Made by a program: the position numbers and the translations under genes. A model generated the notes under the pieces. That model searched no databases, was not told where the DNA came from, and saw only the letters and a list, made by a program, of their open reading frames with translations. 64,000 nt of DNA from Corallococcus sp. EGB (GTDB lineage Bacteria; Myxococcota; Myxococcia; Myxococcales; Myxococcaceae). Location of the stretch: contig NZ_CP079946.1 of NCBI RefSeq assembly GCF_019968905.1, positions 1,302,001 to 1,366,000 of the forward strand, read 5' to 3'. The stretch's first letter is position 1. Each line of letters begins with the position of its first letter. Shown here one piece after another: positions 57,645 to 60,242 of this stretch.

Positions 57645-58790
57645 TCACTCCGCCGTGCGGCTCCGCGTCTTGTACGTGAGCACCGGCGCCAGCGTCGCCA
57701 CCACCCGCACCAGCCCCGCCTCCACCAGGTCCGTCACCACACGGTCGATGGCCTTGTACGCCGGCGGCGCCTCCTCGAAGAGCAGGTCCCGGTCCTCGCA
57801 CACCACGTGGCTCTTGAAGGACGTGCGCGTCAGCGACTCCGCCGTGAAGCGCTCCTTCATCCGGTCCCGCGCCGCCGAGCGCGTCCACTTGCGCCCCGCG
57901 CCGTGCGCCAGGCTGAACGCGCTCTGCTCGCCCGTGCCCACCGGCAACACCAGATAGCTCAGCGCGCCACGACTGCCGGGAATCACCACCGGCCCCTCGT
58001 CCCAGGGCGCCGCGCCTTTTCGATGCAACCACCCCACGCGCCCGCCCGAGTGTCGCGCGGTCACGCTGTTGTGGCACACGTCCAACACCCGCCGCCCCGT
58101 CGCCCCAATCCCTTCCAACGCCCGTTGCGCCACCAGCGCCCGGTTCGCCTTCGCCCACAACACCGCGCCGTCGTGCCGCGTGAGATAGGCGCGCGCCTCG
58201 TCCGAGTCCGCCGCCAGTCCGCCCGCCGCATGCCGGTCGACATGCTTGCGCAGGATGGCCTCCCCCAGCCCGCGCGACCCCGAGTGCACGAGCAACAGCA
58301 ACCGCTCCTCCCGCAGGCCCAGCGCCTCGAAGACGCGCGCGTCGTGCACCTCCTCCACCCGCTGCACCTCCGCGAAGTGGTTGCCGCCGCCCACCGTGCC
58401 CAGCGCCGCCTCGAAGCCCGTGCTCTGCGCGCCGTGCTCCGCGAGGACCGCGCCCGTGTCCCCCTCCCACGGCCCCTCCAGGTCCAGCTTCGCCGCCCAC
58501 CGCTCCGCCTTCGCCTTGCGCGTCGGCAGGTCCACGTCCCACAGGCCCATGCCACAGCCGATGTCGCTGCCCACGAGGTAGGGATAGAGGAAACCCTCGG
58601 ACTCGAAGGCGGCGCCCACCGGAGCGCCCTTGCCGGGATGCAGGTCCGGCAGTCCCACCGCGAGCCTCATGCCCGGCAGCCGCGACACGGCCTCCAGTTG
58701 GCGGACGGCCTCGCCCTCCACCCAGGACTGGGGCGAGGCGATGATGCGCACGGTCGCGGCCGTGGAGGTTTCAGAAGAGGGTGTGGTCAT
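57645..58790 (-). CDS. rtcB: RtcB-like RNA ligase (PrfH-associated subfamily)
   Basis: A 381-residue protein, shorter than canonical RtcB (about 400-480). Metal and guanylylation residues are present: Cys in GSDIGCGMG, His in GTVGGGNHF, His in LLVHSGSRGLG, His in VCHNSV and the nucleophile His in LAHGAGRKWTR. RtcB joins 2',3'-cyclic phosphate or 3'-phosphate RNA ends to 5'-OH ends using GTP and Mn. The size and the GLPDLHPGKG opening fit the subfamily usually paired with the release-factor homologue PrfH, but no prfH is adjacent here. Start ATG 58790; 64 bases separate it from rlmH. Confidence 0.9.
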   Translation of the reverse strand: MTTPSSETSTAATVRIIASPQSWVEGEAVRQLEAVSRLPGMRLAVGLPDLHPGKGAPVGAAFESEGFLYPYLVGSDIGCGMGLWDVDLPTRKAKAERWAAKLDLEGPWEGDTGAVLAEHGAQSTGFEAALGTVGGGNHFAEVQRVEEVHDARVFEALGLREERLLLLVHSGSRGLGEAILRKHVDRHAAGGLAADSDEARAYLTRHDGAVLWAKANRALVAQRALEGIGATGRRVLDVCHNSVTARHSGGRVGWLHRKGAAPWDEGPVVIPGSRGALSYLVLPVGTGEQSAFSLAHGAGRKWTRSAARDRMKERFTAESLTRTSFKSHVVCEDRDLLFEEAPPAYKAIDRVVTDLVEAGLVRVVATLAPVLTYKTRSRTAE

Positions 58791-58854: not shown

Positions 58855-59319
58855 CTACTTGTGGTAGGGCTCGCCCTTCAGGATGGTGAACGCGCGGTAG
58901 AGCTGCTCGATGAGCACCACCCGCGCCAGCCGGTGGGGCAGCGTCATCCGCGAGAGCGACATCACCTGATGCGCCGCGCCGCGCACCGAGTCATCCAGCC
59001 CCTCGTCACCACCAATGACGAAGAGCAGGTCCTTCGCGCCCGTCTGCGCCTTGGCGACGTAGCGGCTGAGCTCCACCGAATCCAGCAGCGTGCCGCGCTC
59101 GTCCAGCGCCACCAGCCAGTCCTGCGGCTTGCGCTTGCCGAGGATGGCGGCGGCCTCCGCGGACTTCGCCTCGCCGGGCTTGAGCTTGCGGCCCGAGGCC
59201 TCGTTCAGCTCCAAAAGCTCGAAGCGCGTGTAGTGCTCGAGCCGCCGCGCGTACTCCTGCACGGCGGGCTCGAACAGTCCGGAGCGGTCCTTTCCGATGG
59301 AGAGGAGGCGGACCTTCAC
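58855..59319 (-). CDS. rlmH: 23S rRNA pseudouridine-1915 N3-methyltransferase RlmH
   Basis: 154 residues from GTG 59319 ([10 protein letters not shown]); upstream codons belong to rsfS read in another frame. It has the SPOUT-family fold with [27 protein letters not shown] (the knot that binds S-adenosylmethionine), [20 protein letters not shown] and the C-terminal GEPYHK. It methylates pseudouridine 1915 in helix 69 of 23S rRNA in assembled 70S ribosomes. Adjacency to rsfS is conserved in many bacteria, including E. coli ybeB-ybeA. Only four bases separate it from rsfS. Confidence 0.96.
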
Positions 59320-59323
59320 GGGA

Positions 59324-59866
59324 CTAGGACAGCTTCTCCCGGGGCGCGTCCGCCCACAGGCCGTCCAGGTCGTAGAAGGCGCGCACGTCGCCGTTGAACA
59401 GGTGGGCCACGACGTCGTCGTAGTCCAGGAGCACCCACTGGCCCGTCTCAAAGCCCTCCGTGCTGATGGGACGCAGCGGCTGCGGGTCCTGCTTGAGCTG
59501 CACCTGGACGTTCTCCGCCATGGCGCTCACCTGGCGGTCGCTCTCGCCGGAGGCGATGACGATGTAGTCCGCGTAGGACGTCATCCCGCGCATGTCGAGG
59601 ATGACGACGTCCGTGGCCTTCTTGTCCAGCAGCAGGTTGCCGATGCGGCGCGCCAGCTCGCGCGCCTTCGCGTTCTCCGCGGGCTTGGGAGGCGCGGGAG
59701 GGGCGGCGACCTTCGCGGCCTTCTTGCGCGCGGGGGCCTTCTTGCGCGCCGCCGGACGCAGGCGGGTCTTCGCGGCCTTCTTCGCGGCCGTCTTCTTGCG
59801 GGCCGGAGCCCGGGTGCCGGTCTTCGCCTTCGCCTTGGATGCAGGGGTCTTCTTCTTCGTGGCCAT
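59324..59866 (-). CDS. rsfS: ribosomal silencing factor RsfS with basic N-terminal extension
   Basis: A 180-residue protein. Residues about 68-180 are RsfS ([64 protein letters not shown] and the Asp-rich end). It binds ribosomal protein uL14 and blocks subunit joining in slow growth. Residues 1-65 are an unusual Lys/Ala/Pro-rich tail ([29 protein letters not shown]) like the C-terminal tail of histone H1. Ordinary RsfS proteins are about 105-120 residues and lack it. Whether the tail binds RNA or DNA is not known. Confidence 0.92.
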
Positions 59867-59927
59867 GTGGCGGCTACCCTATCGCACCCTTGGCAAGCTT
59901 CCAGCGCTCCTCTAAGGGGATCCGTCC

Positions 59928-60242
59928 ATGAGCGACGCCCGCCTGGAACAATTCAAGAAGATGACGGTCCAGTTCCCCGACGCCCCCATGGCCTGGTTCT
60001 CCCTGGGGAAGCTCCACCTGGAGCGCAAGGAGTACGACAGCGCCATCCAGAGCCTGGAGAACGCCGTCCGCCTGGACCCGAAATACGCCGCCGCCCTCGT
60101 CTCCCTGGGGGACGCCTACGCGGGGGCCGGCAAGACGGACAAGGCGAAGGAGGTGCTCACCACCGCTCGCGACCACGCGCTCGCCCAGCAGCACCCCAGC
60201 CTGGCGGAGGAGATCGACGAGCGCATCGCCGACCTGGACTGA
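59928..60242 (+). CDS. small TPR protein
   Basis: A 104-residue protein with AGGGGAT ahead of ATG 59928. It consists of two and a half TPR motifs (MAWFSLGKLHLERKEYDSAI, YAAALVSLGDAYAGAGK) plus a capping helix (SLAEEIDERIADLD). No signal peptide, so it is a cytoplasmic protein-interaction module. It is divergent from rsfS (61 bases) and convergent with the barrel protein gene. The function beyond protein binding cannot be deduced. Confidence 0.82.
   Translation: MSDARLEQFKKMTVQFPDAPMAWFSLGKLHLERKEYDSAIQSLENAVRLDPKYAAALVSLGDAYAGAGKTDKAKEVLTTARDHALAQQHPSLAEEIDERIADLD

Follow-up and report, generated by a model that had tools for sequence, protein, structure and literature searches.

A lysine- and alanine-rich, H1-like N-terminal tail on the ribosome silencing factor RsfS of the Myxococcaceae

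Tails that resemble histone H1 are known mainly from DNA-binding proteins. In the 64,000-nucleotide stretch of the Corallococcus sp. EGB chromosome that was analysed here (the window), a tail of this kind stands at the N-terminus of RsfS, a widespread factor of the 50S subunit, and this raises the question of whether H1-like tails also serve ribosome factors. RsfS itself is already known, as are lysine-rich regions on bacterial proteins that deal with nucleic acids (PMC6821194); among the open-licence papers that our literature searches listed, no title or abstract opening mentions such a tail on RsfS, or a pair of tails on RsfS and Obg in myxobacteria. The tailed clade, which includes Myxococcus xanthus, constitutes a natural fusion with which to probe what limits RsfS on the ribosome.

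An RsfS core with a basic N-terminal arm

Judged from its sequence, rsfS encodes an ordinary RsfS core fused to a basic arm (Table 1). The domain matches PF02410 (E 1.3e-29; 102.8 bits against a cut-off of 21.6; aa 75-171) and lies above the cut-off of TIGR00090 (109.5 against 56.9), and the AlphaFold model has the RsfS fold, with 4wcw as its best Foldseek match (E 1.2e-11, probability 1.00). The RsfS structures are followed in that search by pre-50S chains and mitochondrial MALSU1, several of them from 50S or mitoribosomal large-subunit particles. Some MALSU1 chains are 228-234 aa long, and the N-terminal part of MALSU1 is taken to hold a targeting signal. Residues E137, D148 and Y165 occupy the positions of Glu70, Asp81 and Tyr98, the reported contacts of Staphylococcus aureus RsfS to uL14 (PMC7125091), when they are mapped by their spacing and by the ends of the 6sj5_A alignment (an offset of 65 at the start and 67 at the end, hence a two-residue insertion) rather than by a residue-level alignment. 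The core domain, the predicted fold and the three uL14-contact residues are thus those of the RsfS/Iojap/YbeB proteins; however, bacterial PDB chains of this family measure 105-139 aa (152 aa in 28ye), whereas here a basic N-terminal arm of 60-100 residues has been added. RsfS is present in 10 of the 14 control genomes.

On the same strand, rlmH follows 4 bases past rsfS; the NCBIfam RlmH models match it under their cut-offs. Beyond rlmH and still on the same strand is an RtcB-family RNA ligase (window positions 57645-58790, minus strand; PF01139, E 3.6e-71).

Table 1. The rsfS locus in window coordinates, and tailed genes found elsewhere in the genome
Feature	Position	Strand	Tail	Basis and remarks
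rsfS, ribosome silencing factor	59324..59866	-	N-terminal, basic	180 aa; PF02410, TIGR00090, AlphaFold model
rsfS residues 1-65, Lys/Ala/Pro/Thr-rich tail	59672..59866	-		Net charge +22; predicted unstructured; conservation and codon analysis
RsfS domain, PF02410, aa 75-171	59354..59644	-		Profile match; residues by alignment ends and spacing
rlmH, 23S rRNA methyltransferase	58855..59319	-		PF02590, E 1.4e-48; GTG start taken
Gap of 61 bases between rsfS and the divergent TPR gene	59867..59927	.		ORF positions
Small TPR protein gene, divergent neighbour	59928..60242	+		Profile match
Obg			C-terminal	Pattern and profile match
Frame with ValS anticodon and C-terminal domains			C-terminal	Pattern and profile match
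DNA topoisomerase I (TopA)			N-terminal	Pattern and profile match
KaiC-like ATPase			C-terminal	Pattern and profile match
TfoX_N protein			C-terminal	Pattern and profile match
SMI1-like protein			C-terminal	Pattern; SMI1 match just under cut-off
DUF1016_N protein			N-terminal	Pattern and profile match
Stand-alone 67-residue H1-like ORF (L222)	G000:C1, about 8207755-8207865		All tail	Starts MAAKKKTAKKAASKK...

An earlier note on this DNA had described an RsfS with about 65 extra N-terminal residues of Lys, Ala, Pro and Thr, and the description is borne out: beside the PF02410/TIGR00090 domain, residues 1-65 comprise 20 A, 17 K, 9 P, 6 T and 6 R with a single acidic residue (E64), and residues 66-180 have a net charge of -6. 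Among 2,368 stop-free stretches of at least 100 aa in the window and 400 kb of the same chromosome, the tail ranks first, its best 65-aa window having an excess of K over D+E of 17, with 11 for the next. This ranking and the codon selection described below rule out a chance or spurious ORF as the origin of the tail.

The tail is translated, in all probability, from the ATG at 59866. This codon, which is preceded by a weak Shine-Dalgarno-like AGGG, is the sole ATG, GTG or TTG before residue 92, and residue 92 lies beyond the first predicted helix and strand (66-81 and 85-91); CTG occurs at 36, 71 and 78-80, and ATC at 75 and 89. An internal start past the tail, which the earlier note had named as the finding that would overturn it, is therefore unlikely, and purifying selection on the tail codons also argues against it.

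In the AlphaFold model, for which the input was an alignment of 50 sequences, block-mean pLDDT is 53-64 over residues 1-50, 75 over residues 51-60 and 90-98 in the domain, and secondary structure starts only at residue 66. The tail thus has the properties by which we recognise an H1-like tail, being rich in Lys, Ala and Pro, nearly free of acidic residues and, by prediction, unstructured. However, RsfS has no match to the HC2 family (PF07382) at E up to 0.1. The likeness to histone H1 that had been proposed consequently applies to composition and predicted disorder and does not extend to membership of HC2.

Distribution of the tail and selection on its codons

The distribution was scored over 166 RsfS loci, the window's own included. 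Of 96 Myxococcaceae genomes, 92 had a match and one (G040, with the gene in two pieces) was omitted, giving 91 loci; matches in 77 genomes of other families, less G119 and G127, gave 75 loci, 17 in the next family (f3) and 58 elsewhere in the phylum. To count as tailed, a locus had to possess a start codon, 30 or more residues ahead of the domain and, in its best 40-residue window, at least 8 Lys, at least 10 Lys+Arg and at most 4 acidic residues. This rule replaced one that scored a fixed 56 residues before the domain, and which had found the tail in 84 of the 91 family loci but in only 1 of the 17 in f3, because in f3 an Ala/Pro linker parts the tail from the domain. Under the new rule the family count stayed at 84 of 91 (L095 dropped out and L002 came in), and the tail was found in 14 of 17 loci of f3 and in 4 of the 58 elsewhere. 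Two of the three f3 misses reach the contig end without a start codon and the third is weak; the 58 include four more weak tails and six loci without an ATG, GTG or TTG start that were scored as untailed. The tail is, then, a lineage trait. These counts supply the survey of Myxococcota that the earlier note had asked for, and its statement that ordinary RsfS lacks the tail proves largely right, though not wholly, given the tails of the two families, the four tailed and four weak loci among the other 58, and the 152-aa RsfS chain of PDB 28ye, which is not among the loci scored and has a K/R/A-rich N-terminal stretch too.

In two f24 loci scored as untailed (L121 and L140), Lys/Ala-rich repeats occur upstream in the RsfS open frame, some 90 or more residues before the domain, so that 4 of 58 may undercount the tails. 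Lys/Arg-bearing stretches also precede the domain in four Polyangium loci (L274, L275, L277 and L278), which stand outside the scored set. Among named records the tail is found in Corallococcus, Myxococcus (including M. xanthus AM003, L269), Archangium, Hyalangium, Citreicoccus and Pyxidicoccus, and also in Anaeromyxobacter soli, terrae and oryzae. Since Anaeromyxobacter is not known to form fruiting bodies, a purely developmental role for the tail is not favoured. One record titled Comamonas sp. KCTC 72670 (L263) carries a Myxococcus-type RsfS and is probably mislabelled.

The 84 tails of the Myxococcaceae vary from 59 to 104 residues (median 72) and from +18 to +34 in net charge, with a composition of K 29%, A 24%, P 12%, T 10% and R 8%; upstream of the last 12 residues, D and E together account for 18 of 5,288 residues. 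The start MA-x-KKK is shared by 68 of them. The seven family exceptions consist of three weak tails in which Arg replaces Lys (g21 twice, g11), three that are short or weakly basic (g9 once, g23 twice) and L075. The last of these, from a MAG of the window's genus and the same place as L252, has a broken tail frame that reads as poly-Arg and has no start, through either an assembly error or a true frameshift. In L099-L113 (f1 genera g4, g12, g18, g25 and g26) the RsfS core has diverged (62-83 bits against the window's 104) and the basic tail is kept; in L105 and L112, the loci that were read, the EG..GxW loop is VEPSPDW or VEASPDW.

At the codon level, median dN/dS among 15 Corallococcus-group genes is 0.25 for the tail and 0.27 for the domain, and among 27 Myxococcus-group genes 0.46 and 0.35; in the latter group the constraint on the tail is weaker than that on the domain, yet its ratio is well below 1. 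Lys in the tail is nearly always encoded by AAG, a single transition from the Glu codon GAG, and neither GAG nor GAA occurs among 952 Corallococcus-group and 1,795 Myxococcus-group tail codons (0 of 2,747), a count that leaves aside the 8 alignment columns nearest the domain, among which the window's one Glu lies. In 105 pairwise alignments of the 15 Corallococcus-group genes, from which the frame-broken L075 was omitted, all 119 DNA gaps in the tail are multiples of three, the pairs being non-independent. These observations indicate that composition has been kept rather than exact sequence, which would be the expectation for a basic unstructured arm, and the tail is translated and under a purifying selection that preserves its positive charge. 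Within the Corallococcus group, synonymous differences are scarcer in the RsfS domain (mean pS 0.088; 59354-59644) than in the tail (0.209; 59672-59866).

Other tailed proteins and the pairing with Obg

RsfS is not the only protein of this genome with such a tail, a point that goes beyond the earlier note. The codon pattern KK-(A/P/S/T)x3-KK, searched over the chromosome, gave 27 matches at 12 places and none in the reversed control; nine places were judged to be plausible genes, RsfS and eight others (Table 1), and three (L200, L206 and L216) to be non-gene frames. As the pattern is blind to tails built otherwise, nine is a lower bound. Three of the eight (Obg, the ValS frame and TopA) have their function at the ribosome, on tRNA or on DNA; to our knowledge, the TfoX_N, KaiC-like, SMI1-like and DUF1016_N proteins are not ribosome factors. 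HC2 matches, all below cut-off, were obtained for Obg, the ValS frame, TopA, the SMI1-like protein and the 67-residue ORF, and this last may be a candidate small nucleoid protein. No further Lys tail in the window and the 400 kb sampled passed the filter; this, and the restriction of the pattern to 12 places, rule out a genome-wide fashion for Lys tails as the sole cause. When the RsfS tail was searched against the proteins of the genome there were 13 matches (150 of 272 candidates scored), among which RsfS itself alone was significant; the other 12 had E 0.14 or worse, and the frames there were, on reading, without a comparable tail. In one of those loci, L175, the tailed SMI1-like gene lies at another position.

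Contact sites between ObgE and RsfS have been shown on an Escherichia coli pre-50S particle (PDB 7BL2), and the two factors are proposed to cooperate in the maturation of H89 (PMC10693566). The same source has the mitochondrial RsfS homologue MALSU1 on large-subunit intermediates, in contact with the Obg-family GTPase GTPBP10 (PMC10693566). Because ObgE and RsfS touch on the pre-50S, we compared their tails in the 59 genomes with an Obg match: 27 Myxococcaceae, nine genomes of the next family with a tailed RsfS and 23 others (G176 had no Obg match). Within the Myxococcaceae, Obg is tailed in 22 of the 23 genomes with a tailed RsfS (one reaches the locus end) and in none of the four with an untailed RsfS, two of which (g11 and g21) retain Arg-rich basic stretches. 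The next family has both tails in two of nine genomes and the RsfS tail alone in seven, and the 23 remaining genomes include three with only the RsfS tail, two with only the Obg tail and none with both. An Obg tree with 58 rows, from which the cut L356 was omitted, shows 7 changes of the RsfS tail and 6 of the Obg tail, and the tree test of coupling was not significant (4-5 supported independent contrasts; median sign-test p 0.5). Co-occurrence as a proof of coupling was rejected in view of the basic stretches in g11 and g21, the exceptions in other families and the outcome of the tree test; the pairing in the Myxococcaceae is suggestive and unproven.

A putative RNA-binding arm and its alternatives

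Given the intact core, the simplest role for a flexible arm of +22 would be to hold RsfS to nearby rRNA. RsfS of S. aureus is reported to bind uL14 and possibly, through positively charged side chains, the 23S rRNA, in a cavity that H95 and bL19 share (PMC7125091), and mutation of Y98 to abolish the anti-association activity (PMC9503621). In E. coli, RsfS occurs on both pre-50S and 50S particles and sits on the intersubunit face (PMC13246957), and, to go by a title in the reference list of that paper, its role is debated between hibernation and biogenesis. The low-complexity regions of DNA-binding proteins are reported to be enriched in lysine, and lysine-rich regions are present in most bacterial examples of L21 (PMC6821194).

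We therefore propose, as the likeliest reading although the case for and against it seems to us evenly balanced, that the tail serves as a disordered arm which binds RNA and keeps RsfS close to the rRNA of the 50S or pre-50S subunit. In its favour are the spread of the tail and the selection on it, its predicted disorder, the conserved uL14-contact residues and the tails on Obg, the ValS frame and TopA; against it stand the higher dN/dS of the tail in the Myxococcus group, the loss of the Obg link outside the family and the tailed proteins without a known ribosomal role. The core would bind uL14 and block 30S joining, as in other bacteria, and the disordered polycationic arm of 60-100 residues fused to it would act as an electrostatic tether, insensitive to sequence, that locates the 23S rRNA near the place where RsfS sits and keeps hold of it, on finished as well as on immature 50S subunits. 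The affinity or residence time of RsfS on the 50S would be raised in this way, and assembly or hibernation might be affected; in the Myxococcaceae a neighbouring 50S factor, Obg, would have the same kind of arm. The earlier suggestion that the tail could bind nucleic acid gains from its being a real, translated and maintained basic tail of H1-like composition, which could have that capacity, and the effect on hibernation in starvation development that the note also raised is hypothetical; as to the target, the sequence cannot tell rRNA apart from DNA, polyphosphate or membrane.

A further idea, which we consider a long shot, is that in the Myxococcaceae RsfS and Obg, two 50S factors in contact, have both gained polylysine-like arms and form a module on the immature large subunit that is tuned by charge. 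Acetylation of the lysines, or competition from polyphosphate, would then switch the grip of this module on rRNA when the cell starves. Such a module, if it were real, would link ribosome shutdown to the starvation state.

The chief rival to the rRNA-binding arm, by analogy with known tails, is a tether that would bind DNA or polyphosphate and bring RsfS, and idle 50S subunits with it, to the nucleoid or to the granules of polyphosphate in starvation; we consider this rather unlikely. It draws on the H1-like composition of the tail, on the five other tailed proteins that match HC2 below cut-off and on the tail of TopA in this genome, but RsfS does not match HC2 even at E up to 0.1, its core is a standard RsfS domain, and Obg and ValS, which are tailed as well, are RNA-side proteins. 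Two known kinds of tail also bear on the DNA or polyphosphate tether. The PAKK/KAAK tail of HupB, a mycobacterial HU, has similar basic motifs added to a core domain and is reported to be required for nucleoid association; however, it is C-terminal and on a nucleoid protein, whereas that of RsfS is N-terminal and on a ribosome factor (PMC5676037). The KPAA tails of AlgP and PhaF are, like the RsfS tail, of Lys, Pro and Ala and have been likened to histone H1, and that of AlgP is required for the spacing of polyphosphate granules, but they consist of long tandem repeats and belong to granule proteins (PMC9239181). A further tail for comparison is that of Streptomyces TopA, a housekeeping enzyme with lysine repeats that are said to give processivity; it is a topoisomerase and its tail is C-terminal (PMC7398561), whereas the TopA of this genome has an N-terminal tail.

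We think it improbable that the tail is a neutral low-complexity extension, produced by repeat slippage in a GC-rich genome and of little function beyond solubility. The wide range of tail lengths (59-104), the absent or weak tails of 7 of the 91 family loci, one of them a broken frame, and the similar tails on unrelated proteins are what such an origin would lead one to expect; nevertheless, dN/dS is well below 1, none of the 2,747 codons encodes Glu although AAG is one transition from GAG, and the window and the 400 kb sampled have no second such tail.

Still less probable, in our estimation, is an inhibitory arm that would span the subunit interface and repel or capture the 30S subunit or mRNA, thereby strengthening anti-association, a suggestion consistent with the location of S. 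aureus RsfS at uL14, bL19 and H95 (PMC7125091) and with that of the E. coli factor on the face between the subunits (PMC13246957). That the tail is an annotation artefact and the true protein begins past it, as the weakness of the AGGG before the ATG might suggest, is scarcely credible when no ATG, GTG or TTG follows until residue 92, when 68 of the 84 tailed family loci start with MA-x-KKK, and when selection of the coding type extends across the tail.
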